From Alphaproteobacteria bacterium TMED93 (lineage in GTDB: Bacteria > Pseudomonadota > Alphaproteobacteria > TMED109), in assembly GCA_002171495.2 (NCBI GenBank), contig NHEU02000016.1, positions 1,881 to 28,313 on the forward strand: a stretch of DNA of 26,433 nt. The letters are read 5' to 3'. A program made the position numbers and the translations under genes. The notes beneath the pieces were generated by a model, which had not been told where the DNA came from, did not search any database, and saw only the letters and a list, made by a program, of their open reading frames with translations. Below, piece after piece: positions 3,469-23,396 of this stretch (positions are counted from its first letter, which is position 1; each line of letters starts with the position of its first letter).

Positions 3469-3864
3469 ATGAAAATTATAATATCCATAATCTTTATGTT
3501 TTTATCTGCTAAATCATTTGCAGACTTAGAAGGTAAAGCTTTAACCTGTAAATGGGAAGGGTCAATTACAGGTTATACTTTCGCAAGAAACTATAAATAT
3601 CGTCAGTATTACGTTGGGCAACATAATGATACTTTTAGGGTGGAGTATTCAGACTTAGATAATTACTCAATGAATCCAGATAATATAAATCTATACATGG
3701 GATGGAAAATAAATAGAAAGACTTTAAGAAGAGTTAATCGTCTAGGACATGATAAGGGTCAATGTGAACTAGCTGATTATGAAACACTGAGCAATAGAAT
3801 GCAAGAACATAAAAATGAACTACAAAAAAAATACAACAAGAAGCTAGAAAGAAATAAAATCTGA
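3469..3864 (+). CDS. Small secreted protein, 'GKxxxC' family
   Basis: The protein has 131 residues with a clear signal peptide (MKIIISIIFMFLSAKSFA). The mature part begins DLEGKALTCKWEG, has an aromatic-rich middle, then WKINRKTLRRV, a second Cys (QCELADYE) and a charged tail ending ERNKI. It is a paralogue of the protein at 732. Its stop codon shares bases with the start of the FtsZ-like gene (TGATG), so the two should be translated together. The remnant at 6638 preserves the start of such a gene joined to the end of an FtsZ-like gene, which supports a lasting association of the pair. Function unknown. Confidence 0.65.
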   Translation: MKIIISIIFMFLSAKSFADLEGKALTCKWEGSITGYTFARNYKYRQYYVGQHNDTFRVEYSDLDNYSMNPDNINLYMGWKINRKTLRRVNRLGHDKGQCELADYETLSNRMQEHKNELQKKYNKKLERNKI

Positions 3865-4400
3865 TGAATGTAATATTAATAGGTTTGGGTGGAGCAAGTG
3901 GAAACATACTCAATAATATTGCTGAAGATAGTCCTAATGATTTTAATTACTTGTATATAAACACAGATAAAAAATCTATAGAAGACTCACAAATAGAAAA
4001 CAAACTACATGTAGATGTTAAAGAAGATATAGATATTAAAGATTCTTTTAAAGACATAACAGACAGTATTCTTAATCACGTTAAAGAGAATGATAAAGTA
4101 TTTGTTATAGCTGGATTAGGAGGTGTAACAGGCTCTGCACTATTATCTCATTTAGGTAAGTTATTAAAAGATAATAATTGTTCATTTGTAGGAATAGTTA
4201 CAAAGCCATTTAATTATGAAGGAAAAGCTAGAATGGAAATAGCAAATAAGTCATTAGATGAAGCTAAACCTTTCTATGACAAGATTGAGATATTTAATAA
4301 CCAATCTATGTTTCAATATGCAGAAAAAGAAACTACTTTTACTCAAGCCTTTAAAGAAATGGATATAAGAATAAAAACATATATTGAAAATGAGATTTAA
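3864..4400 (+). CDS. Truncated FtsZ-like GTP-binding protein
   Basis: This 178-residue protein matches only the N-terminal GTP-binding half of FtsZ. Visible landmarks in order are the T1 loop GLGGASGN (7-14), NTD (33-35), a changed tubulin signature GLGGVTGSA (84-92, where FtsZ has GGGTGTG), VTKPFNYEG (112-120), NQSMF (146-150), and TTFTQAFKEMD (157-167). Asp167 sits where FtsZ has the helix H7 Asp that contacts guanine. The protein then ends, so the T7 loop (NxDxxD) that completes GTP hydrolysis in a filament, and the whole C-terminal domain, are missing. It may bind nucleotide and cap or modulate FtsZ filaments, but this is inference. It is coupled by TGATG to the secreted protein gene and lies 4 bases before a methyltransferase gene. 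Confidence 0.75.
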   Translation: MNVILIGLGGASGNILNNIAEDSPNDFNYLYINTDKKSIEDSQIENKLHVDVKEDIDIKDSFKDITDSILNHVKENDKVFVIAGLGGVTGSALLSHLGKLLKDNNCSFVGIVTKPFNYEGKARMEIANKSLDEAKPFYDKIEIFNNQSMFQYAEKETTFTQAFKEMDIRIKTYIENEI

Positions 4401-5727: not shown

Positions 5728-5774
5728 TTAATTAACTTTTCAATGATTTATTGAATTAAAAAATATGTTATAAT
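5728..5774 (+). repeat. 47-base direct repeat, copy 2 (promoter-like)
   Basis: This second copy of the 5120-5166 sequence is 608 bases downstream. Here the extended -10 is closer to consensus (TATGTTATAAT, hexamer 5769-5774) and runs into the first ATG of the nuclease gene at 5773. Between the copies, bases 5575-5727 hold only AT-rich sequence with a weak CTTTAG/CTAAAG hairpin (about 5666-5692) followed by a short T run. Confidence 0.7.
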
Positions 5775-6582
5775 GATAAGTCTAAAAAGAAATAGTAAAT
5801 TAGAATTAGTAGAAGCTAAAGGAATACGTGTAAGACAATCTTCAATGTATACTCCTAATCAAAACGAAGATTTTAAAATAAGTAGAGGAAAGTTTAGTGA
5901 TTTTTTAACTTGTCCTCGTTGTTTTTATTTAGATAGAGTAAAGGGCTTAGCTTCTCCTGGAATGCCAGGATGGACCTTGAATGAGACTACAGACCTATTA
6001 CTAAAGAAAGAATTTGATGAGTGTAGAGAAAAGCAAACAGCTCATCGTATTTTTGAGGAAAATAATCTAAATCACCTAGTTCCTTTTGCACATCCAGATA
6101 TGGATAAATGGAGAGACTCCTTAAGAAATGGTTTAATGACAAAGTTTGAAAATATTATTCTTACTGGAGGCGTTGATGATATATGGCAGGATACAAATAC
6201 AAAAAAACTTATAGTAGTAGATTATAAGTCACAAGCGAATAAAAACATGGTAGAAACATGGTCTTATCTATCCTCTCCTTATCATGAAGGCTATAAAGTA
6301 CAAATGGATTTTTATGCATTTCTCCTGAAAGAAATGAACTTTGAGGTTGATGAAACTAGTTATTTTCTTGTTTGTAATGCAGATAGAAACGCAGAAGGTT
6401 TTTTTGGAAAGATGGATTTCTTTGAGACTTTAGTTCCATATAAATGGAATACTGACTGGATACCAGAACAATTGTCTAATATGCTAAAAACGCTAAACAG
6501 CGATGAAATACCAGAAGGTAATGTAAGCTGCATGAATTGTGCTTATGCTAGACAGAGAGCCCAGTATGACAAAAAAATATAA
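5773..6582 (+). CDS. Cas4/RecB-like PD-(D/E)XK nuclease with four cysteines
   Basis: This 269-residue protein resembles the PDDEXK_1 (Cas4/RecB) superfamily. The N-terminal part has SRGKFSDFLTCPRCFYLDRV with Cys47 and Cys50, typical of the start of such nucleases. The catalytic core shows GGVDDIW (133-138) and VVDYKSQ (148-154), supplying the Asp, Asp and Lys of the active site. A QMDFYAFLL helix follows. Near the end is CMNC (Cys253, Cys256). The two Cys pairs could hold an iron-sulphur cluster as in Cas4 or AddB. No CRISPR array or other cas gene is near. A -10-like hexamer overlaps ATG 5773, so the true start may be ATG 5845 (MYTPNQNEDF), just before the conserved part. Confidence 0.75.
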   Translation: MISLKRNSKLELVEAKGIRVRQSSMYTPNQNEDFKISRGKFSDFLTCPRCFYLDRVKGLASPGMPGWTLNETTDLLLKKEFDECREKQTAHRIFEENNLNHLVPFAHPDMDKWRDSLRNGLMTKFENIILTGGVDDIWQDTNTKKLIVVDYKSQANKNMVETWSYLSSPYHEGYKVQMDFYAFLLKEMNFEVDETSYFLVCNADRNAEGFFGKMDFFETLVPYKWNTDWIPEQLSNMLKTLNSDEIPEGNVSCMNCAYARQRAQYDKKI

Positions 6583-7059: not shown

Positions 7060-7248
7060 ATGATTAACAAGAATAAATATTTTCTTAAAAAAGAGTTAGC
7101 AACCAGATATAGAGTAAGTACCTCTACTATTGAGAGATGGGTTTGTGATAAGAACTTTCCTTCTCCCCTAAGGATAGGCCCTAATAGAATTTTGTGGGAT
7201 ATAGATGAAATACTAGATTGGGAACAGTCTAGGAAGGAGGATAGGTAA
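7060..7248 (+). CDS. AlpA/excisionase-like HTH protein
   Basis: This 62-residue protein matches the AlpA/MerR-like small HTH proteins of mobile elements: FLKKELATRYRVSTSTIERWV forms the helix-turn-helix, followed by FPSPLRIGPNRILWDIDEILDW, a typical wing and ending. Such proteins act as excisionases or as regulators of prophage and island genes. An AAAGGAG sequence at 7041-7047 lies 12 bases before ATG 7060 and only 3 before an in-frame TTG at 7051, so the start is not settled. The stop overlaps the next start (TAATG). It likely controls the helicase module downstream. Confidence 0.75.
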   Translation: MINKNKYFLKKELATRYRVSTSTIERWVCDKNFPSPLRIGPNRILWDIDEILDWEQSRKEDR

Positions 7249-7619
7249 TGTCAAAAAAGCTCAAAGAAAATCAAGTAATTGCAGCTAAATTAATATCTTT
7301 TGGGTTTTCCTCTAGAAGTGTTTCTAAATGGATTAATGTGAGAGAGGAAACTATTTCTAGATGGAAAGCTCAAAAGGTTTTTTTAGAAGAAATACAAAAT
7401 CAGCAATCTGATACTTTAGACTTTATAAAAGAAAAACACTTTCAGTTATTTATAAAATCATTAAGTATTATTGAAAAAGCGCTTGAAGATGATGACCTTT
7501 CTTTAAAAGACAAAGCTATGATTAGTACAAGGTACTTGAGTTTATCATCTGGTTATTTAATAAATAATATAAATAAATCTAGCTATCATATTAAAGAAAA
7601 TTCTAGTTTAAATTTTTAA
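7248..7619 (+). CDS. HTH protein, terminase-small-subunit-like
   Basis: The protein has 123 residues. The N-terminal 40 residues form a helix-turn-helix (AAKLISFGFSSRSVSKWI, then VREETISRWKAQ) like that of phage terminase small subunits and phBC6A51-type proteins. The rest is helical, and a last basic tail follows. It could be a DNA-recognition protein of an integrated element or a regulator. Its start overlaps the AlpA-like stop by one base, so both are co-translated. The large nuclease-helicase gene begins 68 bases later. Confidence 0.55.
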   Translation: MSKKLKENQVIAAKLISFGFSSRSVSKWINVREETISRWKAQKVFLEEIQNQQSDTLDFIKEKHFQLFIKSLSIIEKALEDDDLSLKDKAMISTRYLSLSSGYLINNINKSSYHIKENSSLNF

Positions 7620-7687
7620 TAAAATATTCATGAAATGCTATCGTTTACTTTATACGTTTAATTGTTAAAATAATTTTATATTCATAG

Positions 7688-10600
7688 ATGAAAAATATGG
7701 AAAATAGAAAATATTATACTTTAGGATTAGATGAAGAAAGCTGTAATTTTTGTATAGAGAACTTACTAGGTAGTAATAATGAAAAATTTCCGGATAGCAT
7801 TTTAATTTTAGAAAAAGTCTTACATAAAGGAATGTTGTCTAAAGCAACAAAATTTCTTTCAAATAAATTAGAAAATAATTATCCTAAAGAAAAGAGATTA
7901 AAAAATATAAAGCTTATTGACGATAAGATACAAAAATGGACCAATTTGACTATAAAAGGAAACTCCAATAACTTAAAAGATAATCCAGCCTATAAGTTGT
8001 ATAAAGATATATCTTCTTTATTAAAGGGATTTCAATTTTTAAATAAGTTGATAATCCCCGAATGTAAAATATCAAGTTTTTTCCCACAGATAAGTGAAGT
8101 AAGCAGTTTAAATAAAGATTCTACAGTAGACTTCTATATTCCTGATGCAAGAATTATAATTGAAGTAGATGGACAGTTTCATACTGAAAGCGAAAGTCAA
8201 AAAAATATAGATAAAGAAAGAGATAATTTACTAAAACATTTACATATAAAAGTATTTAGAGTACCTACAAAATTTATAAGAGAAGAAACTAAAGAATACA
8301 GCGACTTTAAAAAAGAGCTTATTTTATTTTTAGGTAATAATATAAATATTCAGCACTATAAAAGCACCTTTGACAATAAGCTATTTCTTCAAGAACAATA
8401 TTATTTCTCTCACACAGCTATTATTAGGTTTCAGGTGCTTTTATTAGAATTAATTAAAAAAAACATTTTAAGTTTAGAGGATAAAAGTTGGAACCTAGAG
8501 ATATTTTCTGATTTTATTTCAAAGTTTGATTGGGTAAAGGTAGCATTAGATGATTTTTTTAACTTATTGTCACCTATATCAAATTTGTATGGTGATACAT
8601 TTATTAAACCAAAAATAAATTATAAAACTTATAAATATAATAAAGTTACTGAAAAATCTAAAAATATTAAAATAATGTTTTCATTATTTAGCAAGTATGA
8701 CGAAAGTAAACCAGATTATATATCTTTAAAAAGTACATATATACAAACTATATGTTATAAAACTCGTGGAAGCAGAAATAATACTATATTTAGATGGGGG
8801 GTATTGTCTAATTTCTTTGCAACTCCTAAAGTAAATAAAAAAAACATAAACCTTTCCGATGAACTAGTTCATAAAAGTCTGAAAATAATCTTGAAAGAAA
8901 TATATGATTATAATTCTTTTAAAGAAGGACAGGAAGAAATAATTGAAAAAATTTTTAAAAACCAAACATGCTTAGGTTTGTTACCTACGGGTGGAGGAAA
9001 GTCATTATGTTTTCAATTAACTTCTTTACTCAGATACGGTACTTCTATTGTTGTATGTCCTATTATATCTTTAATGAGAGACCATAAAGAAGAATTAGAC
9101 CAATTAGGTTTCAATCGAAGAGTTGGTTTTATATCTGCTAATCAGGAAAAACATAAGCGTGAAATAACTATACAAAGATTTAAAGAGGGGCAGCTTAATT
9201 TTATTTTTATTTCTCCTGAACGTTTTCAAACTGAAGAGTTTAGAAATATACTAATAGACTTAAACCAAACTAATTTAATTCAAAATATTATTTTAGATGA
9301 AGTTCATTGTTTATCTGAATGGGGGCATGATTTTAGACCTTCTTATTTGTCACTAGTTAATACAATAACAAATGCTATGAAAATTAAAGTTCCAATAATA
9401 TCTTTAACAGCTACGGCATCTTTAGCAGTTCTAAAAGATTTACAAGTAGAGTTAAACTTAAATGATGAAAATATAGTTTATAAAATGCTAATAGGTCGTA
9501 AGGAGCTTACCTTTGATATCAAACAGATTGATTCTAATACTAAGAAAACCATTTCAATTGATAAGCATGAAAATAAATACCAAGAATTATTAAATTTTTT
9601 GAAAAATAATAAACCAAGTAAAAAAAATGCAGGTTTAATCTTTACACCGCACGTAAATGGTAATTTAGGCTGCTATCCTCTTAGAAGAGACCTTTTATTG
9701 AGTTTAGATATAGATATTGGTATATTTAGTGGAGATGAACCTAATGATGCTAATACAGATATAAACAATAATTTATATAAGGATTGTGATTTCTTTAAAA
9801 AGAAAAACAGTAATAAAAGTAGTATTTCTTTTTATGAGCAATATAAGACTGAAATACAGGATAAATTTAAAAATAATGAATTAAGCCTAATGATTGCCAC
9901 CAAATCTTTTGGTATGGGTATTAATAAGAAAAATATAAGGTTTACAGTGCATTATGGAATGCCAGCATCAATGGAAGCTTTTTATCAGGAAGCAGGAAGA
10001 GCAGGAAGAGATGGAGAAGAGTCTCACTGTAAATTACTTTTTACAGAAGAGCATGATGGAATTCCTTCTGACTTACATGATAAAAATTTAAACATTAATA
10101 AGTTAAAAGGTTTTCCAAATAGTACAGAAAAAAATAAAAGAGGAGATTTTAGAACCCAATTATGGTTGCTAGCTAGCAAAATTTATTCTGTTTCTGAAGA
10201 TGCTAAAGCATGTGAATTACTTATAAATAAACTGTTTGAAAGTAATAGAGGAGTAGCAGAAGTATACCAGAAACGTGAAGTAATTATATATAGATTATTT
10301 CAATTAGGTATTGTTAAGGATTGGCTAGTAAAAGATTTTTTTGGTGGAACCTATCTAGTAAAGTACAAAAAAATTGATGTTGCGCAAATTTCTAAAAATA
10401 TCTTTAATAAGATTGCTAAATATTCTCCAAGTAATGAAGAGGTAAGTAAACATAAAAATAATCTAGGTTTAATACTTAAAGAAAATAATAATCCAATGAA
10501 AGATTTAATTACATATCTTTTAAGGTGGAATTATGAACACTTTGTTTATAATAGAAGGCAATCTTTAAAAAATCTTTATGAAAACTGCCAAAACTTTAAA

Positions 10601-11137
10601 AATATAGGGGCAAAAAGGTTTAAAGTAATGATGGACCAGTATTTTGCTATTGATAGTATATCTATTAATATAAATAAACATTTAGATAATTCTTTCACTG
10701 AGGCAATAGATAGTTTAGAAAGCACTTTATTCAAAGATAGCCAATTAGTTGATAATGATTATCTGTTAAAAACACAAACTTCTTTATCTAGATTTTTAGA
10801 AGCCTATCAGGATAACCCTTGGTTAAATATATTAAGTGCTTTTTGTAGGCTATTAAATAATGACTTTAATGATTTAGATGGAAAAGATAGATTTATAAGT
10901 TTTATAAATAGTGCAAAAAAAAATGAAAAAAATTGGCAAGAAGTTAAAAAGAAAATATTAAATTTAGGAGTAAACCTAGATGATGATAAAAAAATATTAT
11001 TATCTAACACTCTTGTGGATTCAAACTCTAGAGTAGAGGAAATTATAGATGTATATGATATTCTAGAAGACAAAAACTCTTTATTATTGTATATAGAGAA
11101 AGCTAATAATAGATTTAAAAAAGTTAAATATTTATGA
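7688..11137 (+). CDS. DUF559/VSR-like nuclease fused to RecQ-type helicase
   Basis: The protein has 1149 residues. The N-terminal third contains a short PD-(D/E)XK nuclease of the DUF559/VSR type: STVDFYIPDARIIIEVDGQFH with Asp148, Glu159 and Asp161, then KERDNLLKHLHIKVFRVP. The middle is a RecQ-like superfamily 2 helicase: Walker A PTGGGKS (433-439), DEVH (537-540), SLTATAS (from 572), FGMGIN, and QEAGRAGRDG (767-776). After it comes a winged-helix-like part and a helical C-terminus of about 300 residues; no HRDC domain or RQC zinc cysteines are evident. The fusion implies coupled unwinding and cutting of DNA, as in antiphage systems. The stop overlaps the next start (ATGA), so the two products probably act together. 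An internal ATG at 7697 is an alternative start. Confidence 0.85.
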   Translation: MKNMENRKYYTLGLDEESCNFCIENLLGSNNEKFPDSILILEKVLHKGMLSKATKFLSNKLENNYPKEKRLKNIKLIDDKIQKWTNLTIKGNSNNLKDNPAYKLYKDISSLLKGFQFLNKLIIPECKISSFFPQISEVSSLNKDSTVDFYIPDARIIIEVDGQFHTESESQKNIDKERDNLLKHLHIKVFRVPTKFIREETKEYSDFKKELILFLGNNINIQHYKSTFDNKLFLQEQYYFSHTAIIRFQVLLLELIKKNILSLEDKSWNLEIFSDFISKFDWVKVALDDFFNLLSPISNLYGDTFIKPKINYKTYKYNKVTEKSKNIKIMFSLFSKYDESKPDYISLKSTYIQTICYKTRGSRNNTIFRWGVLSNFFATPKVNKKNINLSDELVHKSLKIILKEIYDYNSFKEGQEEIIEKIFKNQTCLGLLPTGGGKSLCFQLTSLLRYGTSIVVCPIISLMRDHKEELDQLGFNRRVGFISANQEKHKREITIQRFKEGQLNFIFISPERFQTEEFRNILIDLNQTNLIQNIILDEVHCLSEWGHDFRPSYLSLVNTITNAMKIKVPIISLTATASLAVLKDLQVELNLNDENIVYKMLIGRKELTFDIKQIDSNTKKTISIDKHENKYQELLNFLKNNKPSKKNAGLIFTPHVNGNLGCYPLRRDLLLSLDIDIGIFSGDEPNDANTDINNNLYKDCDFFKKKNSNKSSISFYEQYKTEIQDKFKNNELSLMIATKSFGMGINKKNIRFTVHYGMPASMEAFYQEAGRAGRDGEESHCKLLFTEEHDGIPSDLHDKNLNINKLKGFPNSTEKNKRGDFRTQLWLLASKIYSVSEDAKACELLINKLFESNRGVAEVYQKREVIIYRLFQLGIVKDWLVKDFFGGTYLVKYKKIDVAQISKNIFNKIAKYSPSNEEVSKHKNNLGLILKENNNPMKDLITYLLRWNYEHFVYNRRQSLKNLYENCQNFKNIGAKRFKVMMDQYFAIDSISININKHLDNSFTEAIDSLESTLFKDSQLVDNDYLLKTQTSLSRFLEAYQDNPWLNILSAFCRLLNNDFNDLDGKDRFISFINSAKKNEKNWQEVKKKILNLGVNLDDDKKILLSNTLVDSNSRVEEIIDVYDILEDKNSLLLYIEKANNRFKKVKYL

Positions 11138-11559
11138 ATTTAAAAAAAGCAGAAAAAGCTTTAGACACATTAGATGAGAACGCAAAGAAAATTTCAAAAA
11201 TTTCTGATTCTGTATCTGATTTCAAAAAAACTGCTGCTGAATTAAAAAAACTTCCATCAGAATTAGAAAAAGATAGTTCCTTAATTACTTTAAAAATTCA
11301 TGAATTTAAAGACAAAGTTTTATCAGAATTTGATAAATATAAAAAAGATAATGATGCTAAAATAGAAAATCTTAAAAAGGATATGCAATCAAATATAGAA
11401 AACCTAAAAAAAGATAATAAACTAAATATAGAAACATCAAGAGAGAGTTTTAAAATAGAAATAGATAGTTTAAGAGGTAGGTTGTTTTTTTATTTTTGTA
11501 TTTTTGTTTTGCTTATTATAGGTTTGTTCATCATGGCCTTTAAAGACTTAATTTTTTAA
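11134..11559 (+). CDS. Coiled-coil protein with C-terminal membrane anchor
   Basis: This 141-residue protein is a long, lysine- and glutamate-rich helix with heptad-like spacing, including two near-identical 11-residue units (IENLKKDMQSN and IENLKKDNKLN) at about 78-99. A single membrane segment lies near the C-terminus (about 117-135, FFYFCIFVLLIIGLFIMAF). It would be tethered to the inner membrane with the coiled coil in the cytoplasm. The start overlaps the stop of the nuclease-helicase gene by four bases, so it is very probably its partner. A membrane-anchored coiled coil next to a defence-type nuclease suggests a scaffold or effector; that role is inference. Confidence 0.65.
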   Translation: MNLKKAEKALDTLDENAKKISKISDSVSDFKKTAAELKKLPSELEKDSSLITLKIHEFKDKVLSEFDKYKKDNDAKIENLKKDMQSNIENLKKDNKLNIETSRESFKIEIDSLRGRLFFYFCIFVLLIIGLFIMAFKDLIF

Positions 11560-13568: not shown

Positions 13569-14018
13569 TTAATGATGCTTGTGTTCTTGATTTCCTATTA
13601 AAACTTTAAATTTAATATTTATTACATTATTTTTAAATTTTATTTTTGCGTCTAACATTTCATCGTTAACATGCGACTTATTAATACCAAAGAACATAAT
13701 ATGATAAGATTTTGGTTTAAATATTAATTCTTTTCCAGGTAATACAATTAAGTCTTCTTTAAGAGGGCGCATTTTATATACACCATTCTCTTCAACAACT
13801 TCATGTATTTCTTGTTTTTCAGCTATACTTGAGTCAATTCCTATAAGTTGTATCTCATTATCAGAATTATTTTTAATTTTAAAATAACCAGCTCCCATCT
13901 TTCCATCATTAGCAATCATTTTCAGGATAGGGTGTGATATTGTTATACCATTTTTTTCATACTGGTGAGCAAAAGACTGATTGAGAATAAAGTATAATAA
14001 GACTATAAAAATACGCAT
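13569..14018 (-). CDS. PCu(A)C-type periplasmic copper chaperone
   Basis: The 149-residue protein has a signal peptide (MRIFIVLLYFILNQSFA) and the PCu(A)C (DUF461) fold: GAGYFKIKNNSDNEIQL, then the Cu(I) site with His72, Met83 ten residues later, and HIM (His106, Met108). This is the H-x10-M-x22-H-x-M pattern, close to the family form. The C-terminus ends in EHKHH, extra possible ligands. Such proteins carry Cu(I) in the periplasm, often to cytochrome oxidase, or buffer it. It is convergent with the MerT-like gene, 8 bases apart, and not in the operon with the efflux pump. Confidence 0.85.
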   Translation of the reverse strand: MRIFIVLLYFILNQSFAHQYEKNGITISHPILKMIANDGKMGAGYFKIKNNSDNEIQLIGIDSSIAEKQEIHEVVEENGVYKMRPLKEDLIVLPGKELIFKPKSYHIMFFGINKSHVNDEMLDAKIKFKNNVINIKFKVLIGNQEHKHH

Positions 14019-14190
14019 ACTTCAGAATTAGTTATTTTTATTTGAAAAGCAATGTTTAATTTAAAAATAATTAAATAATTTTTATAATAAGTTATTGATG
14101 TTTAGTATTATCATTAGAATATGATTAGAAATAAAATTTATAATAGCTTTATTTTTTTAATTTTAATAATAATTTAGTAATATTTACTAC

Positions 14191-14372
14191 AACTTCAGTT
14201 TCAACTCGAGAGAGAAATTATCTATGATATGATAAAAGTTTATTAAATTATGCGTTTGAGGGATAAATAGCAGAGAGGTTTTATCGGCAGACACTCCATT
14301 ATAACCCCCTCAAGAGAATGCATAAACTCCGTCAAAAAGGTCAGAGCCTTGTATTTTATTAAGATAGGCTCT
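14191..14372 (+). repeat. Promoter-hairpin element, copy C, with long stem
   Basis: This is a diverged relative of copies A and B. TATGAT (14228-14233) again starts 24 bases before GCGTTTGAGG, but the -35 region reads CTCGAG. The stem is long: TATGCGTTTGAGGG (14249-14262) pairs with CCCTCAA and GCATA (14307-14324). Inside it, GATAAA can pair with TTTATC. A second hairpin follows (AGAGCCT 14343-14349 with AGGCTCT 14366-14372). The 400-base gap between the copper chaperone and cusA holds this element and the integrase remnant, plus AT-rich sequence from 14019 to 14190 in which I see no gene. Confidence 0.5.
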
Positions 14373-14412
14373 ACTTCTCAAGTATGCCGTGCATAAAAAA
14401 AAAGCAATCTAC

Positions 14413-14433
14413 TTGTAGATTGAAATGTAGAGT
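14413..14433 (+). repeat. Short repeat abutting the integrase start (copy D)
   Basis: TTGTAGATTGAAATGTAGAG matches the beginning of elements A and B (CTGTAGATTnAATTGTAGAG) at nearly every base. It ends directly before the ATG of the integrase remnant. The preceding AATCTAC makes an inverted repeat with GTAGATT. This suggests a binding or promoter site linked to the integrase. Confidence 0.5.
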
Positions 14434-14658
14434 ATGAAAATAACAAAAAATAAAATTTAGTCCTTACAGACAGGTAAAAAACTCATGATGGTAGAGGGTA
14501 ATATTTCTTTTAAAAGGCGAAAAGGCAGATGGAGTTTTCGTTACCAACGCAATGGACAGTGTCATGAAATGGGATGTGGCATCTATCCTGAAGTTACCAT
14601 TGCCATGTCTAGAGAGCAACATGAGAGTTATAAAAAATCAAAAAGTTTTATCTTTTGA
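14434..14658 (+). pseudogene. Broken P4-type tyrosine integrase (N-terminal fragment)
   Basis: Translation from ATG 14434 reads MKITKNKI, an in-frame TAG (14458-14460), then SLQTGKKLMMVEG, then FKRRKGRWSFRYQRNGQCHE, then MGCGIYPEVTIAMSRE. This matches the DUF4102/Arm-binding N-terminal domain of P4-type integrases (the G-x-K-x-WRFRY...MGLGxYPxVSLAxARE pattern). The catalytic domain is absent: the frame runs into the 3' end of the oppositely oriented cusA gene and stops at 14658. It is a dead fragment, cut at the border of the pump operon, and marks an old recombination point. Confidence 0.75.
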
Positions 14659-17600
14659 TATTTTAATATAATTTTCTACTGCACTTTGTCCAAACTTCCA
14701 AAATATTAAAGGTGTTAATAGTAATGTAAATAAAGTTGACCCTAATAAGCCTGAAAATATTACTATTGCTACGGGGTTTAAAATTTCCTTACCAGTTTCC
14801 CCTGTAGCTAAAACCAAAGGAGATAAAGCTAAGATAGCTGTAGATGCAGTCATAAAAATAGGAACTAGTCTTTCCTGAGTTCCTCTCTTAATCATTTTTA
14901 AAGAAAATTTTTCATTTTCCTTTAGAGCTAAATGTAAATAATAAGAAATTAATAAAATATTATTCCTTGAAGAAATTCCTATTAGAGTAATAAATCCTAT
15001 CATAGTGGCAATAGATAGAACACCGCTACTAAAATATATTCCTATAATAGCCCCAATAAATGAAAAAGGTATGGCTAACATAACTTGGAGTGATAAATTT
15101 GTTGATTTAAAATGAGTATGTAAAGCAATAAACATACCTATAAATGAGAGCAGACTAAGAAGTAAAATTTTTTTTTGTGCTTTAGATTGGTTTTTAAATT
15201 CGCCATCATAACTTATGAAGTAGCCAGATGGTAGATTGATTTTTTTGTCTAAGGTACTTTTTATTTCTTTAACAACACTAACTACATCTCTGTTTTCCGT
15301 ATTAGCTTGTATAACTATTCTACGGCTAAGGTTCTCTCTATTAATATTATTTGGTCCTTTAGCCTCTTCTATATCTGCGAATAAATTTAAAGGAACGATA
15401 GTTCCTCTTATAGTATCAAATGGTATTTTTCCTATATCGGCAATATTTTTTCTTGAATGATCATCTAGTCTTAAGATTACATCATATATTCTATTACCAT
15501 CTATAATACTGGTTATGGTTTTACCTTGAAGAGCTAGCTCTGCATGCTTAGCTGCTTCTCCTATCATAACTCCATGTTGCTTTGCTTTATCTCTATCAAA
15601 TAAAATATGAATTTGTGGAATTAATAGTTGTTGCTCTACTTGTAAATCTACAATACCATCTATTTGATTAATTAGGTCTTTTACTTCATTAGCTTTAATT
15701 CTTAGTAAATCTAAATCATCTCCAAATATCTTTATTGCTATTTTTGCTTCTATTCCAGAAGTAATAAAATCAATTCTATGAGAAATTGGTTGCCCAATAT
15801 TTACTGCTATGCCAGGTATCAAACTAAGTTTATTTCTAATATCTGTTATAATTTCTTTTTTTGTACGTGATGTTTTTTTTAATTTCACTTCTAATTCTGA
15901 AGTATTTATATTCAAAGCATGTTCATCCTTTTCACTTCTGCCAGTTTTGCGACCAGTATACAATACTTCTGGAATTTCTAGTAATAGTGCTTCAGTTCTC
16001 ATTCCTATTCTGTTGGACTCCAAAAGAGATGTGCCAGGAGGAAGAGCAATATTTATAGTAAAACTCCCTTCATTGAAATCTGGTAAAAATTTTCTACCAA
16101 AGTTAGGAACCAAAGTAATTGTTATAATCATTAATATAGTTACTGAGAAAAAAATAACTTTTGGATATGCTAGTAACAAATCAAATATGCTTGAATGACT
16201 TTTTTTTAAAATTCTTATTAACCAACTTTCCTGTTTTTTATAAATGTTTTTCATGTTTGGCAGAAGATAAGATGATAAAGCTGGTGTTAAAGTTAGAGAA
16301 ACAATTAAAGATGCAATTATAGCTGTGATATATGATATTGCCAAAGGTGCAAAAATTTTTCCTTCTAAACCACTTAATGAAAAGAGAGGTAAAAAAACTA
16401 ACATAACTATAAAAGTAGAAAAAATAATAGTATTTCTAATTTCTTTTGAGGCCTCAAATATTACTTTCATTACTGGTTTAGGATCAATCATATTTTTATT
16501 CTGACGTAATCTCCTAAAAATATTTTCAACATCAACAATAGCATCATCAACTAATTCTCCTATAGCAATAGCTAGTCCGCCTAATGTCATAGTATTTAAA
16601 CTCATATTAAAAAATTTAAAAATAATAAAAGTTACAACTAATGATAAAGGTATGGCTATCAGAGTAACTGCCGTAGTTCTAAAATTTAATAAAAAAAGAA
16701 ATAATATTAGTGCTACTAAAATAGAACCATCTTTAATAGCATTGGCTACATTTTTTATAGCATTTTCTATAAAGTCAGATTGTTTAAAAATATTAGCATT
16801 TATTATCACCTCATTTGGAATAGTTTGTCTAATTTCTTCAAGTTTTTTATTAATATCCTTTGTAAGTTTTATTGTGTCTGTGCCTGGCTGTTTTGATATA
16901 GCTAATAAAATACCTGCTTTTCCATTAATAGAGGCATCGCCTCTTTTTGTAACAGGGCCACTAATTTTTATTTCTGCAATATCTGCTAAGGTTAGGGAGG
17001 GCATTTCTGGTGATACTTTTTTAGCAATTACTGTTTTCTTTAAGTCATCTAAGGAAGATATTCTTCCCACATTTCTAATTGAATACTCTTTATATGAGTC
17101 TTTTAGAAATCCTCCTGTAGTATTAATATTTGCATTTTCTAAAGCTTCTTGGACTTGATGTATGGTGACGCCAAAGTTTATAAGTTTATCTGGGTTAATT
17201 AAAACGTGATATTGTTTTAAATCTCCTCCTATAGCTGTTATTTTAGATATACCACTGATGCCTAATAAATTTTGCTTTATATCCCATTCAGCTATTGTTC
17301 TTAATTCTATTGAACTAAGTTTAGTTTTATTAGAAGAGGTAATACCAATGAACATAACCTCTCCCATTATAGAAGATACGGGCCCCAAAACAGTATTTAC
17401 ATCTTTAGGAAGAACAGAAGATACTTGATTAAGCTTTTCTATTACTATTTGTCGAGCTTTGAAAATTTCTGTATTCCAATTAAATTCAACATAGACTATT
17501 GAGAAACCTATTGAGGAAGAGGAACGCACACTTTTTACACTATTTGCGCCATTCATTGCAAGTTCTATAGGAAGAGTAACAGTTGTTTCTATTTCTTCAG

Positions 17601-17772
17601 GAGCTAAACCTTCAACTTCTGAAATAATAGTTACTGTTGGTGGGCTTAAATCAGGAAAAACATCAATAGGTAAAGTTTTTACTATTTGATAACCATATAC
17701 TAAAATAAAAGCTGACAATGAAACTATTAATAATCTTGATTTAAGAGAATACAGTATTATTTTATCGAGCAT
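14638..17772 (-). CDS. cusA: Heavy-metal RND efflux pump (CusA/CzcA family)
   Basis: The 1044-residue length is normal for HME-RND pumps. It starts with a first transmembrane helix and the PIDVFPDLSPPTVTI motif, followed by the first periplasmic part, then a block of helices with IGELVDDAIVDVENIFRRL (about residues 403-421), which carries the charged residues of the proton relay. The second half has the matching pattern (SISSRNN-like segment GISSRNNILLISYY) and ends with helices. It drives Cu(I)/Ag(I) export from the periplasm through the outer membrane using proton influx. Metal preference is inferred from the CueR and PCu(A)C neighbours, since the Met triad was not checked. It is the last gene of the efflux operon, 21 bases after the adaptor gene. 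Confidence 0.85.
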   Translation of the reverse strand: MLDKIILYSLKSRLLIVSLSAFILVYGYQIVKTLPIDVFPDLSPPTVTIISEVEGLAPEEIETTVTLPIELAMNGANSVKSVRSSSSIGFSIVYVEFNWNTEIFKARQIVIEKLNQVSSVLPKDVNTVLGPVSSIMGEVMFIGITSSNKTKLSSIELRTIAEWDIKQNLLGISGISKITAIGGDLKQYHVLINPDKLINFGVTIHQVQEALENANINTTGGFLKDSYKEYSIRNVGRISSLDDLKKTVIAKKVSPEMPSLTLADIAEIKISGPVTKRGDASINGKAGILLAISKQPGTDTIKLTKDINKKLEEIRQTIPNEVIINANIFKQSDFIENAIKNVANAIKDGSILVALILFLFLLNFRTTAVTLIAIPLSLVVTFIIFKFFNMSLNTMTLGGLAIAIGELVDDAIVDVENIFRRLRQNKNMIDPKPVMKVIFEASKEIRNTIIFSTFIVMLVFLPLFSLSGLEGKIFAPLAISYITAIIASLIVSLTLTPALSSYLLPNMKNIYKKQESWLIRILKKSHSSIFDLLLAYPKVIFFSVTILMIITITLVPNFGRKFLPDFNEGSFTINIALPPGTSLLESNRIGMRTEALLLEIPEVLYTGRKTGRSEKDEHALNINTSELEVKLKKTSRTKKEIITDIRNKLSLIPGIAVNIGQPISHRIDFITSGIEAKIAIKIFGDDLDLLRIKANEVKDLINQIDGIVDLQVEQQLLIPQIHILFDRDKAKQHGVMIGEAAKHAELALQGKTITSIIDGNRIYDVILRLDDHSRKNIADIGKIPFDTIRGTIVPLNLFADIEEAKGPNNINRENLSRRIVIQANTENRDVVSVVKEIKSTLDKKINLPSGYFISYDGEFKNQSKAQKKILLLSLLSFIGMFIALHTHFKSTNLSLQVMLAIPFSFIGAIIGIYFSSGVLSIATMIGFITLIGISSRNNILLISYYLHLALKENEKFSLKMIKRGTQERLVPIFMTASTAILALSPLVLATGETGKEILNPVAIVIFSGLLGSTLFTLLLTPLIFWKFGQSAVENYIKISKDKTF

Positions 17773-17793
17773 TTTTTTTTCAATTTTTTAAAA

Positions 17794-18840
17794 CTAATGG
17801 TCATCATGTGAATCTTTTTCATGATCATGATCTTCTTGGTCACTATGGTCATCATGTGAATCTTTTTCATGATCATGATCTTCTTGGTCACTATGGTCAT
17901 CTTCTAAATCTTCGGTAAGGTCTTTATGCTTTTTAGCTGATATATATTGCAATTGATAATTCCCATTTACTATAACTGCATTATCTAAAGTAAGACCATG
18001 CTTTATTTCTACATGATGGCTAGTTCTTGCTCCAATTACTACTTTTCTTTTTTCAATTAATTCTTCTTTAATAATATAAACAAAGTAGTCACCTAATTCT
18101 CCTAATAAAGCTTTTTTTGGGACTGTTAATACATAATTTTTATCATTAATAAAAACTTCCATAGTTCCCTGCAAACCAGGTTGTATATTTTTTTTTGGAG
18201 TTTCAATTATTGCATAAATAGAAAAAGTTCTAGTTTTTTTATCAATAACACGGTTTATGCGTTGAATTTTTCCATTTATTTTATTTTTAGGGTTTACGTC
18301 TAAATGTATTTCTACTTTTTGTCCAAATTTAATTAAGTTTATATCTGGTGTTTCATAAGCTATACCTCTTACTAGCATATGACTTGTATCTCCTATTTCT
18401 AAAATATTACCTCCTGCTTTAATTATTTCTCCTATCCCTGCATTGATATTTAGGACAAAGCCATTTAAAGGTGCGTTTAAAATAATATTCTTATTACCAA
18501 CTTTTAAAGGCTGTAAAGTAACAATCTTATCTCCTTCTTTTACAGATTGTCCTAGCTTTATTGGTAATTCAATAATCTTACCCTCAAACCTAGGGGATAC
18601 TGTAAATTTTTTTTCTGGGACTAGTTCAGTAAATGCTAAAAATTCAATTGTTTCAGAAATTGGTAAAAGTTTAACTTTCTCTGAGCGAATATTTAAATTT
18701 TTTACTTGCTCCTTACTTAATTTGATAAAATCAGAATATATTTCATCTTGAGAAAAAAAACTTTCACCATGATCATGTTCTGGCCCAGATATTAAAATAT
18801 TAGGAATAGTAAAGAAAAACAAAAAACAAATAATTCTCAT
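17794..18840 (-). CDS. cusB: Periplasmic adaptor of the metal pump (CusB/CzcB)
   Basis: The 348-residue protein has a signal peptide (MRIICFLFFFTIPNILIS) followed by a His-containing start (EHDHGES). The body is a membrane-fusion protein: a lipoyl-like half (PRFEGKIIELPIKLGQSVKE), a second half (APLNGFVLNINAGIGEIIKA), and beta domains (PGLQGTMEVFI, VPKKALLG). It joins the RND pump to the outer-membrane factor and may pass metal to the pump. The C-terminus is an unusual His/Asp-rich tail with an exact 16-residue repeat, a possible metal-binding extension. The gene overlaps cusC by 4 bases. Confidence 0.85.
   Translation of the reverse strand: MRIICFLFFFTIPNILISGPEHDHGESFFSQDEIYSDFIKLSKEQVKNLNIRSEKVKLLPISETIEFLAFTELVPEKKFTVSPRFEGKIIELPIKLGQSVKEGDKIVTLQPLKVGNKNIILNAPLNGFVLNINAGIGEIIKAGGNILEIGDTSHMLVRGIAYETPDINLIKFGQKVEIHLDVNPKNKINGKIQRINRVIDKKTRTFSIYAIIETPKKNIQPGLQGTMEVFINDKNYVLTVPKKALLGELGDYFVYIIKEELIEKRKVVIGARTSHHVEIKHGLTLDNAVIVNGNYQLQYISAKKHKDLTEDLEDDHSDQEDHDHEKDSHDDHSDQEDHDHEKDSHDDH
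17797..17892. repeat. Exact 48-base tandem repeat in the adaptor gene
   Basis: Two identical 48-base units (17797-17844 and 17845-17892), plus the first 8 bases of a third, encode SDQEDHDHEKDSHDDH twice at the C-terminus of the adaptor protein. Identity at every base implies a recent duplication or ongoing slippage. Its length is a multiple of three, so copy-number change would keep the frame and only vary the number of His/Asp ligands. Confidence 0.9.
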
Positions 18841-20069
18841 TCTACAAACCTCACTATTCTTTGACCTAATAAACTTTCTAGCTCATTAATAGAGGTTATG
18901 AAATTTAAATAGGCTTGTATTGACTCATTTTCAATATTTATTATTTTTTCTTTTATTTGAAATACTTCAAGGGTTGAAGTCTGCCCATTTTTAAATTTTT
19001 TATCTAATAAATCAGCAATAGCATGCCAAGTTGGTAAAATTTTATTTTTATAATTTTCTGCTGTAGCATTACTTGCTAAAAGTTTTTCATATGCTCTGAG
19101 CAAAAGGTATGAAAAATTTTCTTTATTCAATGAATTTAAATTTTTTTCGATCATATTTTTTTCTGCATAAGCCCTTGCATATACAGCTTTATTTTTATCC
19201 CAAATAGGTAAAGCAACTTTTAAACCCAAAAAAAGGGCAGTACTATTCTCATCAGGGTTATATTGAATTTGAGCTCTAGGACTAAAGGCAGGAACTTTAG
19301 AATCTTCTTCAGCAACTTTTAATTTAGCATTAGCAATTTTTTTTCTACTTTTTAATATGCCTATGACAGTTTCTTCATTGAGAGATAGTTTTATAATTTT
19401 ATTTTTACTAGGAATAGAGATATACTTAGGTTTATTAACAGAAAATACTTTTTGTTTGATTCCTGCCATACTAAGCAGGTTATTCCCTCCTTCAACTTTT
19501 AAAGAACTTAACACTCTTAATTGTTCTTTTAATCTTAGAATTTCTACATCAAATATTTTTTCTTCAGTTGTATCAATTAAACCTTCTAAAGAACTATTTT
19601 TTATTACTTCTTTTTTATTTAAATAAAACTTAGCTTGTTCTTTTAAAATTTTCTCTTTTTCCTGAAGTGCCCAATACGTGGTATAAGCCTTTGTAACTGA
19701 ATGAATGATTTCTAGCTTTTTTGCTTTTTCTTCAATAAGTGCAGTTTTTCTAATTTCATTTGCAAGTAACTTTCTTGATTTTAAATGGGAAACTCTAATA
19801 TCCTGCTCTAATAATAAATTTAAAGATTTAGATGAGTTTTTTTTTAGAGTAGTTACATCTATTTCTGCAGTTGGGTTACTTAAAGTTTCTATTTCTAAGG
19901 CATCAGAATTAGCATCTTGCATTTCTTTGGTTACTCTTGCTGAGGCAGTGCTTTTCTTTATAGCAATATCTAATATACTTTCTAAGTTGATTACTTCTGA
20001 TTTAAGAACACTATTAAAGTTTAAAATAAATAAAAGTAAGAAAACAGGATATTTGTAAAAAATTAACAT
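18837..20069 (-). CDS. cusC: Outer-membrane factor of the metal pump (CusC/CzcC, TolC family)
   Basis: The 410-residue protein has an N-terminal hydrophobic signal (YPVFLLLFILNFNSVLKS) and the TolC-family layout: INLESILDIAIKKS near the start, long coiled-coil helices, ALPIWDKNKAVYARAYAE in the second half, and a final LNFITSINELESLLG segment. It forms the outer-membrane channel of the efflux complex. It is first in the operon. A -10-like TATAAT on the reverse strand (20076-20081) lies only 6 bases before the ATG, which would give a leaderless message. No CueR box was found here. Confidence 0.8.
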   Translation of the reverse strand: MLIFYKYPVFLLLFILNFNSVLKSEVINLESILDIAIKKSTASARVTKEMQDANSDALEIETLSNPTAEIDVTTLKKNSSKSLNLLLEQDIRVSHLKSRKLLANEIRKTALIEEKAKKLEIIHSVTKAYTTYWALQEKEKILKEQAKFYLNKKEVIKNSSLEGLIDTTEEKIFDVEILRLKEQLRVLSSLKVEGGNNLLSMAGIKQKVFSVNKPKYISIPSKNKIIKLSLNEETVIGILKSRKKIANAKLKVAEEDSKVPAFSPRAQIQYNPDENSTALFLGLKVALPIWDKNKAVYARAYAEKNMIEKNLNSLNKENFSYLLLRAYEKLLASNATAENYKNKILPTWHAIADLLDKKFKNGQTSTLEVFQIKEKIINIENESIQAYLNFITSINELESLLGQRIVRFVE

Positions 20070-21191: not shown

Positions 21192-23396
21192 TTATGTGAT
21201 CCTATTTTTATTATAACTAATGATTTCATCTTGAGGTAATAGATTTGTAAGAGGTCCTTCTCTTACATAACATTTTATGATTTTGTTACCAGAGTTATTA
21301 GTTTCTTTTATAAATTTAAGTTCATTTGATTGTTTAACCTCAATTAAACATAAAGTTTTAGTTTGTTCTGATTCTTCTTCTAATAATAACTTTTCTTCTT
21401 CAATTATCTTTTTTTCATCATCTAGTTTTTCTAGTAAATCTCTTTTATTTACAGAAGGAAAACTGATTTTGATATTATTATTAAAGAAGGTTGTATCAAA
21501 ATTTTCTACTATAATTTGTACAAGATGCCTATAAAATTTATCAATACTTCCATGAAAAATATCTAAATCTTTTTTTATTCCTAATAGTTCATTATCATCA
21601 TTTACTCCTATATAAAGGTTTCCTCCTATATGATTTGTAAAACCAGCAATAGTTTTAATAATATTTTTTTCTAGATTGGCATTTTTTTTATCCAATTTAT
21701 AATCCCAGCGTAGTGAGGATTTAAATTCGGTATCATCATCCTCATTAGATACAATCTCTTCCATTATTTGATCAATAGAAATTACTTCTTCCAATTCTTT
21801 AATATTATCTGAAGTCTGATTAAGATTATTTATAAAATTTTCTATAGCTTCGACTATTAAAGTTCTTCTGTTTTTAATAAATAGTTCAAAGTTTTCCAAT
21901 TCCCACAGTTCCTCGTTTTCAGGTATACATTGTTTTATCAATGCATTAGGGTTTTTTTCTTTGCATTCCTTTAAAAATTTAGCTGTTGCATTATTAGATT
22001 TAGATTTATTGGCTTTACTGCTTAGAAAACATATGTTAGCAATTTCATTAATTATTTTTCTATTTTCTGTGCCTTTATATTTATTTTTTAATATCGCTTT
22101 TGGAAATATATGATCTTTTTCAAAAGGATAGTTTGGTGAGTCCAAATCTATTGTTTGTTTTTTGTCTAAGCACACAGCATTGTTATTTCTAAAAGTCCAC
22201 TTCATCATGTAGAACAATGAGCTACTTGTAGATTGATTTTTCAAAAATTCTTCATTTAATATTTGACCTTCTTTTACAATATCTGTGCAAATTTGTAATT
22301 GATTTAACAACGAATTGTTTTTTTCATAACCAATGTATAATATTTTAAGCTGTTCTGTAATTCTAGTATTAACATTTGTCCTAAAATAAGCAAACTTCTG
22401 TGTAGTAAAAAAATAAAAAGCTAGTTTTTTTTCTTCATTCTCGGTCAATTCAAAATAATAATGACAAAATACTATTGGAATAATAGAAGGTTTATTTGCT
22501 ATTTCATTGATATTAATAATTTTATATTTTTTAAAGAAAGCAATCGTTTTTGATAAAGCTCCATCATTTTTTGTTATTTTTTCCCAACATGTTATAACAA
22601 GATCTTTCATTTTTTTGTCATGAAGGGTTTTATCAGTAGCATTATTAGTTTTTACCAAACAAGCCAATATTAATTGAGTATACATATCTATGCTTAAATC
22701 AAATTTATCTAACTTCCTTTTTTCTTTTTCTTTTATAATTTCCTCTCTCGCTTTTTGCCAATAACCAGATATGTATGCTAATAGTAACTCAGCTCCTGTT
22801 AATTTAACTCCAGAAGTGTTAATGTCATGAAATATGTTTATAGCTTTTGTAACGTCTTCACTATCAAATTGTTCATAAAATATTTCCTTTGTAAGAAAGT
22901 TATTTTTTAATTCCATATAAAGATCAATGTGTTCTCTTTTTTTAATGTCTTTTACTTTAAAATTATCTGAAAGCAGATGACTAATTTCTATTTGATTTTC
23001 GGGGTCAGTAATTTTTTCTTTAAAATATAATTCATAAGTTGGAAAATTTTTAAGACTAATGATTATTTTAAAATCTTTGAGTTCTACTTCATCTTTGCTG
23101 TAATAGTAGGGTAATTTACCATACATTATAATATATAATGCAGTAAGCCTTTGCTGGCCGTCTAGAATGTATGATTTTAAAAAGTTATCATTATTATTAT
23201 CGTATCTTTTGGAGGTTAGAGGAATTGTTGATCGCCAAATTAAGAGTCCTCCAACCGGTTTATTTTGTAAAACACTTTCTAGCAATTTAATAATTCTAGC
23301 TTTTTTCCATATAAATTCTCTTTGAAAGTTAGGAATTAAATATTCTTTTGCTTCAATTCTTCTTAAATGTTCTCTTATTTTTAATTTGTCAGACAT
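21192..23396 (-). CDS. GmrSD-type DUF262-DUF1524 protein fused to an AlbA_2 (Schlafen-like) domain
   Basis: The protein has 734 residues. The N-terminal DUF262 (GmrS-like, ParB/Srx-type NTPase) shows IPNFQREFIW (21-30), DGQQRLTALY (79-88) and INTSGVKLTGAELL. The middle DUF1524 HNH nuclease shows FEKDHIFPKAIL (about 426-437), with ANKSKSNNATAKFL as its Asn/Lys part. The C-terminal about 180 residues look like AlbA_2, the divergent AAA-type domain of Schlafen-like proteins: DTEFKSSLRWDY (about 551-562) and GFTNHIGGNLYIGVNDDNELLGI. Together this resembles type IV restriction enzymes (GmrSD, BrxU) that cut modified phage DNA. No partner genes are attached; it is transcribed against the genes on both sides. 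The 160-base gap after it (21031-21191) is AT-rich without a gene. Confidence 0.8.
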   Translation of the reverse strand: MSDKLKIREHLRRIEAKEYLIPNFQREFIWKKARIIKLLESVLQNKPVGGLLIWRSTIPLTSKRYDNNNDNFLKSYILDGQQRLTALYIIMYGKLPYYYSKDEVELKDFKIIISLKNFPTYELYFKEKITDPENQIEISHLLSDNFKVKDIKKREHIDLYMELKNNFLTKEIFYEQFDSEDVTKAINIFHDINTSGVKLTGAELLLAYISGYWQKAREEIIKEKEKRKLDKFDLSIDMYTQLILACLVKTNNATDKTLHDKKMKDLVITCWEKITKNDGALSKTIAFFKKYKIININEIANKPSIIPIVFCHYYFELTENEEKKLAFYFFTTQKFAYFRTNVNTRITEQLKILYIGYEKNNSLLNQLQICTDIVKEGQILNEEFLKNQSTSSSLFYMMKWTFRNNNAVCLDKKQTIDLDSPNYPFEKDHIFPKAILKNKYKGTENRKIINEIANICFLSSKANKSKSNNATAKFLKECKEKNPNALIKQCIPENEELWELENFELFIKNRRTLIVEAIENFINNLNQTSDNIKELEEVISIDQIMEEIVSNEDDDTEFKSSLRWDYKLDKKNANLEKNIIKTIAGFTNHIGGNLYIGVNDDNELLGIKKDLDIFHGSIDKFYRHLVQIIVENFDTTFFNNNIKISFPSVNKRDLLEKLDDEKKIIEEEKLLLEEESEQTKTLCLIEVKQSNELKFIKETNNSGNKIIKCYVREGPLTNLLPQDEIISYNKNRIT

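Follow-up and report, generated by a model that had tools for sequence, protein, structure and literature searches.

We describe a pair of adjoining genes in a 26,433-nucleotide stretch of DNA (the window) from Alphaproteobacteria bacterium TMED93 (contig NHEU02000016.1): the first encodes a Vsr-like nuclease fused to a RecQ-type helicase, and the second, overlapping its stop codon, a small coiled-coil partner with a C-terminal membrane segment. The domains and catalytic residues are in place, the mostly overlapping pair is conserved, its two members diverge jointly and its distribution is patchy and often island-borne. We give about even chances to the reading that the pair is a two-gene DNA-targeting defence module, in which a membrane-tethered nuclease-helicase acts against foreign DNA; we infer that the two products form a complex, that it is located at the membrane, that its substrate is DNA and that it protects against phages. 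A preliminary description of the sequence had proposed a candidate antiphage module. In view of the conserved partner, the patchy spread and the defence neighbours this wording is apt, and 'candidate' remains the right word. The positions it assigned to the four genes of this segment agreed with the open reading frame (ORF) coordinates. The pair consists of the following features (aa, amino acids; nt, nucleotides):

7688-11137 (+), nuclease-helicase, 1149 aa (Pfam, NCBIfam and alignments)
8105-8332 (+), Vsr-like DUF559 nuclease region, residues ~140-215 (DUF559, 1.3e-5; D148, E159, D161, H165, D175 and R178)
8870-10087 (+), RecQ-type motor, residues ~395-800 (DEAD, Helicase_C and TIGR00614; Walker A K438, DEVH at 537-540, R771/R774)
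10088-11137 (+), C-terminal region, residues ~801-1149 (conserved blocks, e.g., NRRQSL and RFLEsYqnNPWLN; no Pfam family)
11134-11137 (+), ATGA, 4-nt overlap of the helicase stop and the partner start (gap -4)
11134-11559 (+), partner, coiled coil with C-terminal membrane segment, 141 aa (heptad and hydropathy analysis)
11482-11538 (+), best hydrophobic stretch of the partner, residues 117-135 (hydropathy)

The first protein is a member of the DUF559/Vsr-like nucleases. It matches DUF559 (PF04480) at residues 146-201 with 25.5 bits (Pfam cut-off 20.6), and the Asp/Glu/Asp residues which the preliminary description had called intact are D148, E159 and D161. Its profile also matches a solved DUF559-type protein, 3hrl (2.1e-6, positions 140-213). 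The proposed fusion to a complete RecQ-type helicase was confirmed by Pfam matches to DEAD (residues 414-584, 3.8e-21) and Helicase_C (residues 719-776, 3.8e-15) and by the RecQ family TIGR00614, whose curated cut-off of 219.8 bits is passed with 263; the cut-off of canonical RecQ, TIGR01389, is failed (288 bits vs 640.2). RecQ zinc-binding and HRDC domains are absent from the Pfam matches up to 0.1, and the last 350 residues contain conserved blocks that match no Pfam family. D148, E159, D161, H165 and the Walker A K438 are invariant across 26 aligned homologues. In an alignment of 72 helicase frames longer than 900 aa, the non-gap cells retain D148 in 66/66, E159 in 64/65, D161 in 61/65 and H165 in 63/66 cases, the 6 or 7 gap rows at these positions being proteins that lack or misalign the nuclease region; among the motor residues, K438 is kept in 71/71 and D537 and E538 in 72/72 each.

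The partner fits its earlier description as a small coiled coil with a C-terminal membrane segment, encoded by a gene that overlaps the helicase gene. Compared with 200 shuffles, its heptad periodicity reaches a z-score of 4.8, and the most hydrophobic 19-residue stretch (mean hydropathy 2.94) stops 6 residues before the C-terminus. The N-terminus, MNLKKAEKALDTLDEN, resembles those of the four nearest named loci, e.g., MDLSKAEKTLNKLEEN of L003; these belong to SAR116 and other marine alphaproteobacteria, with 34-40% identity among the listed matches. Kinship to ZorA, MukB-like or other coiled-coil proteins was considered and rejected. PADLOC matches were 2.4e-4 or weaker for the partner in the window and 9.8e-4 or weaker for that of Klebsiella, and hits of the partner profile included designed bundles as well as viral fusion proteins (best 4.5e-7, a designed coil), so we read these matches as coil similarity.

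That the arrangement exceeds chance is shown by its conservation across loci. This was evaluated in 81 loci, i.e., the window and 80 listed loci from public genomes; 589 pattern matches were obtained, 567 of which encode a relative, ordinary RecQ proteins probably being among these 567. Eight loci (L006, L038, L043, L049, L051, L071, L075 and L079) were set aside, as the contig ended within the helicase or less than 250 nt behind it. A direct partner was defined as a same-strand ORF of at least 90 codons starting no more than 60 nt from the helicase stop; in L016, L073 and L081, where longer ORFs lie on the opposite strand, it was found from the reading frames and by direct search. A partner follows the helicase in 71 of the 73 evaluable loci, directly in 69, and in L053 and L072 behind the second half of a frameshifted helicase. 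The overlap with the helicase stop is present in 54/69 if the most upstream ATG, GTG or TTG is taken as the start, and in 49/69 with ATG alone. Heptad z-scores exceed 3 in 67 and a C-terminal membrane stretch is found in 61 of these 69 directly adjacent partners; two of those without it (L009 and L057) run off the contig end. The partner is absent in L041, which also lacks the nuclease residues, and in L074, a 683-aa RecQ-like frame that is perhaps no true family member. Ordinary RecQ genes of the same genomes served as a control (30 loci fetched, 10 unrecognised and one cut, leaving 19 evaluable): none of the 19 had such a partner, any ORF at all stood there in four, and 7 of the 10 unrecognised loci, read on one strand, showed no coil-like neighbour.

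In the second sample, genomes taken from the phylum to which Flavobacterium frigidimaris belongs, 22/395 contained the helicase at 1e-90, centre included. The ExDGxxH motif of the nuclease is kept in 14 of 21 homologues and missing in seven. Ten of the 21 loci could be evaluated and 11 could not (the partner in L239 repeats that of L073). A coil-like ORF follows the helicase in 8/8 motif-bearing loci (heptad z 4.2 to 13.3), five of these partners having a C-terminal membrane stretch, two being complete without one and one being cut by the locus end; no ORF stands behind the helicase in 2/2 evaluable loci without the motif. Moreover, helicase similarity and partner similarity correlate across 67 loci: the Spearman coefficient is 0.66, against 0.25 at most in 1000 permutations, and 0.62 after dropping pairs with more than 50% helicase identity. 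As motif loss tracks partner absence and the similarities correlate, nuclease, motor and partner appear to evolve together. The preliminary description had proposed this co-occurrence as a check and would have been contradicted had helicases commonly lacked the coiled-coil gene and lain away from variable regions, which neither the two samples nor the patchy distribution revealed. As a separate observation, the partner gene is still open where the helicase is broken by a frameshift (L053 and L072) or split by IS1 (L164).

The distribution of the family is wide and sparse. The 72-row tree covers 16 named phyla, with 26 changes of phylum label (minimum 15, mean of shuffled labels 41.3), counts that do not prove transfer, and 95.6% identical helicases occur in L023 (Oceanospirillaceae) and L024 (Alcaligenaceae). 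The helicase was found in one of 144 related genomes (1e-60) and in one of 398 genomes drawn from the phylum (1e-110), in both cases the genome of the window itself. Relatives are present in 7 of 5426 Escherichia coli genomes, three chromosomal and four plasmid-borne. Coverage of the query reaches 80% or more in eight plasmid records and in none of 25 phage records, and nearly all of the 80 matches listed among viral contigs cover the motor alone. A phage-derived family of unassigned function, phrog_33220 (1558 positions), matches the helicase in the window nearly over its full length (441.5 bits). Since it spans almost the whole helicase and has the same length as a HAD-containing fusion on plasmids (see below), prophages probably carry the module.

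The pair combines two properties by which defence systems are generally recognised, patchy distribution and nearby defence genes. The latter, whose proximity the preliminary description had suggested examining, include restriction-modification, Kiwa, Druantia-type, BREX, Zorya and MZA genes. For 20 genomes containing the pair as well as an ordinary RecQ, the proteins encoded no more than 8 kb away were compared with PADLOC at 1e-20. Among the best 25 families near the pair are type I restriction, type II and III methyltransferases, KwaA, KwaB, a Druantia-type helicase and methylase, BrxA, ZorB and reverse transcriptases; the best 25 near the ordinary RecQ consist mainly of one type I restriction set, mad3, mad5, RtcR and PDC-M72A. 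Among flanks scanned singly, a type I restriction enzyme accompanies L019 and ZorA accompanies L026, and one scanned flanking protein of L037 gave no match. In the two E. coli chromosomes inspected the pair is flanked on one side by integrase, AlpA and type I restriction genes, and mzaABCDE stands on the opposite side. Separately, the window contains a second likely defence gene at 21192-23396 (-), a fusion of GmrSD_N (7.9e-26) to Schlafen AlbA_2 (2e-12) with PADLOC HEC-05 matches.

Several points weigh against a tethered defence module. The neighbour comparison yielded 169 matched families near the pair (130/179 proteins scanned) and 55 near the ordinary RecQ (147/242), figures that count families and not proteins, come from part of the flanking proteins and are detailed for the best 25 families only, so the difference is qualitative. 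Seven flanking proteins scanned at L012, an Erwinia locus, gave no defence match. The heptad signal is weak in two first-set partners (L030, 1.5; L081, 0.9), and with a mean column identity of 20% the coils vary too much for homology of all partners to be proven. A clear membrane segment is missing from six complete partners of the first set (L012, L014, L016, L059, L065 and L077) and from two complete ones of the second, and anchoring is therefore not universal. Finally, the window contig, 32.6 kb of a draft genome that is 75% complete, may be mis-binned. Several of the six segment-less partners end in a short basic tail, e.g., RGLFGRRKG, which may bind membrane or DNA instead.

Two helix-turn-helix (HTH) genes precede the pair and lie outside the conserved unit:

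7060-7248 (+), AlpA/excisionase-like HTH gene (phrog_66, 4.1e-8; phrog_1553, 7.2e-6)
7248-7619 (+), small HTH protein (HTH_Tnp_1_2 in Pfam, 0.011; phrog_2538, 0.0015)

Both had been regarded as typical of mobile elements. This holds for the first, which is an inconstant neighbour across the operon lists of homologous loci and probably part of an integrated element carrying the pair; the second has a weak likeness to transposase or terminase small-subunit HTH proteins only. The window contig starts with the end of a tyrosine-integrase-like frame (L165:2-358, contig C70), cut by the contig end and named from its sequence alone. With this integrase end and the AlpA-like gene before the helicase, the locus looks like an island. 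Among other genes, a CusA/CzcA-type metal efflux cluster occupies 13569-20069 (NCBIfam). In the three same-genus genomes searched nothing matched its pump at 1e-100, so the whole region may be variable or mis-binned. A PD-(D/E)XK nuclease with weak Cas4 likeness (5773-6582, +) has homologues in these three genomes, and contig C39 of its own genome carries another copy. The gene at 3864-4400 (+) encodes a 178-aa protein with the GTPase part of FtsZ/tubulin only (Pfam Tubulin, 2.3e-19), which remains under the NCBIfam ftsZ cut-off (90.6 bits vs 295.2).

In some relatives the pair is joined by DprA and phosphoribosyltransferase parts. On Klebsiella and E. coli plasmids and two E. coli chromosomes, an annotated DprA gene, the helicase gene (1558 aa where intact) and the gene of a 162-aa coil with a C-terminal membrane stretch follow each other with 4-nt overlaps. 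The Klebsiella helicase contains HAD and DUF559 (Pfam) and a ShosT-like, i.e., phosphoribosyltransferase, match (2.3e-7, PADLOC), and the plasmid DprA matches ShosA (1.9e-65, PADLOC). HAD and phosphoribosyltransferase domains (Pfam) are present in the L009 and L076 helicases, whereas SAR116 locus L002 has separate phosphoribosyltransferase (ShosT-like, 1.5e-16) and DprA (ShosA-like, 1.1e-64) genes behind the pair. An upstream ORF of about the size of DprA (323-355 aa) is present in L023, L024, L058 and L076. Since the tree unites the long fusions of L009, L023, L024, L058 and L076 (along with L020, support 90) and places L002 elsewhere, the link between the pair and this arm probably arose more than once. 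Nothing of it was matched by PADLOC among the nine proteins scanned in the window, save the motor's own PsyrT match, a result that extends to these nine proteins and not to the remaining genome.

Zorya combines membrane proteins with long coils and a DNA-processing helicase-nuclease. The ZorA match of the partner in the window (2.4e-4) falls on the coil only, and no MotA- or MotB-like domain was found among the scanned proteins (Pfam). To our knowledge, RqlH has no DUF559, ShosTA-type two-gene systems have no helicase, nuclease or coiled coil, and Hna is a single protein without a coiled-coil partner. PsyrTA/RqlHI resembles the pair in its RecQ-like motor and, for some relatives, in DprA and phosphoribosyltransferase (PMC4670107). 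RqlH has its phosphoribosyltransferase at the C-terminus (PMC4670107), whereas the protein in the window has an N-terminal DUF559, a coiled-coil partner and no such domain (Pfam); the term DUF559 has no occurrence in PMC4670107, and neither PsyrA nor ShosA was matched among the nine proteins of the window, its genome at large not being searched. ShosTA is resembled by the accessory genes of L002, which match ShosT and ShosA, and by the Klebsiella plasmid DprA with its ShosA match, yet DprA-phosphoribosyltransferase systems of this type have two genes (PMC9122126), and neither part is among the window proteins scanned. Hachiman (HamAB) is likewise a two-gene defence of nuclease and superfamily 2 (SF2) helicase (PMC12278908). 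Its nuclease, however, is a separate DUF1837 protein (PMC12278908), whereas here nuclease and motor form one chain and the second gene encodes a coiled coil; no DUF1837 match was found among the nine proteins (Pfam). Hna is a helicase-nuclease with two balanced active sites (PMC13381803). In ARMADA and CoCoNuT systems Vsr-type nucleases are coupled to SF2 helicases and coiled-coil partners (PMC12458937, PMC11090510), but their helicases are YprA-like or McrBC-linked and the motor of our pair is RecQ-type; the term RecQ has no occurrence in either paper. No such named pair was met in the literature searched, subscription literature being mostly outside that search, and the preliminary description's statement that it knew no named system of this combination thus stands. 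The pair looks like an unnamed addition to helicase-nuclease defences.

The preliminary description had also suggested a defence-system classifier, and PADLOC labelled the helicase as DpdF of the Dpd 7-deazaguanine system. PDLC02868 matches residues 88-1073 with 478 bits; at NCBIfam, NF041063 reaches only 173.7 bits against a cut-off of 550. No other Dpd genes were found among nine proteins of the window or in the seven flanking proteins of the Erwinia locus, whole genomes not being searched, and the sole further Dpd matches in the window are weak DpdJ motif matches of the helicase itself. The label looks wrong, because the NCBIfam cut-off is failed and the Erwinia nuclease-RecQ protein, without Dpd neighbours, scores 1642 bits on the same PADLOC model; that the protein is DpdF is very improbable indeed. 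Orphan DpdF calls in genomes may instead be this nuclease-RecQ family.

If the pair is a defence module, the C-terminal segment of the coiled coil would anchor the partner in the inner membrane, leaving its coil on the cytosolic side, and the conserved N-terminal part of the partner would hold the nuclease-helicase there. The RecQ-type motor would load on foreign DNA, whether incoming or in replication, at ends, forks or single strands and move along it, and the Vsr-like nuclease would cut that DNA. In some relatives, DprA and phosphoribosyltransferase may sense the single-stranded product and trigger a toxin response, as proposed for ShosTA/PsyrTA. DprA homologues are antitoxins in shosTA, syrTA and rqlHI (PMC9122126, PMC4670107), and the toxic part of RqlH is the phosphoribosyltransferase (PMC4670107). 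In its fullest form this would be an unnamed immune class, in which a tail-anchored coil posts a Vsr-RecQ enzyme at the membrane to shred entering DNA while in some lineages the single strands arm a DprA-phosphoribosyltransferase toxin, one operon giving two lines of defence, DNA destruction and cell suicide; we put this forward tentatively, as a somewhat unlikely possibility.

Chief among the rival readings is abortive DNA destruction of the Hachiman or Hna kind. Here the enzyme would be a latent unspecific DNase with the coiled coil as its restraint or sensor rather than a tether at the entry site, and once triggered would destroy host and phage DNA together. Helicase-nuclease defences of such logic exist (PMC12278908, PMC13381803), tight translational coupling suits an effector and its restraint, and the DprA and phosphoribosyltransferase of some relatives are toxin-antitoxin parts (PMC4670107, PMC9122126). 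Yet a restraint needs no membrane segment, which 61/69 partners have, and the broken helicases beside open partner genes could mark the loss of a harmful effector or simple decay and are undecisive; we regard abortive infection as unlikely. DprA and ComF-like phosphoribosyltransferases also serve DNA uptake (PMC4670107, PMC5512222), which would suit a system aimed mainly at plasmids or other transferred DNA, or guarding DNA uptake, rather than at phages. Relatives are themselves plasmid-borne, however, and the inspected E. coli islands also hold MZA anti-phage genes, making such a target improbable. A helicase serving repair or replication in the host or in mobile elements, with no immune role, would account for the RecQ-family motor and for the E. 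coli plasmid copies among replication genes (DnaB-like helicase, primase and ligase), but is quite improbable given the patchy presence in hosts, the intact nuclease fused to the motor, the varied carriers and the chromosomal defence islands of E. coli.

Overall, if a membrane-tethered nuclease-helicase defence is the right reading, a two-gene system present in 16 phyla would join the helicase-nuclease defences, orphan 'DpdF' hits in genome annotation would be explained, and membrane-tethered DNA destruction would be linked to DprA-phosphoribosyltransferase toxin systems. With copies in E. coli defence islands as well as in environmental bacteria, the pair is directly testable.

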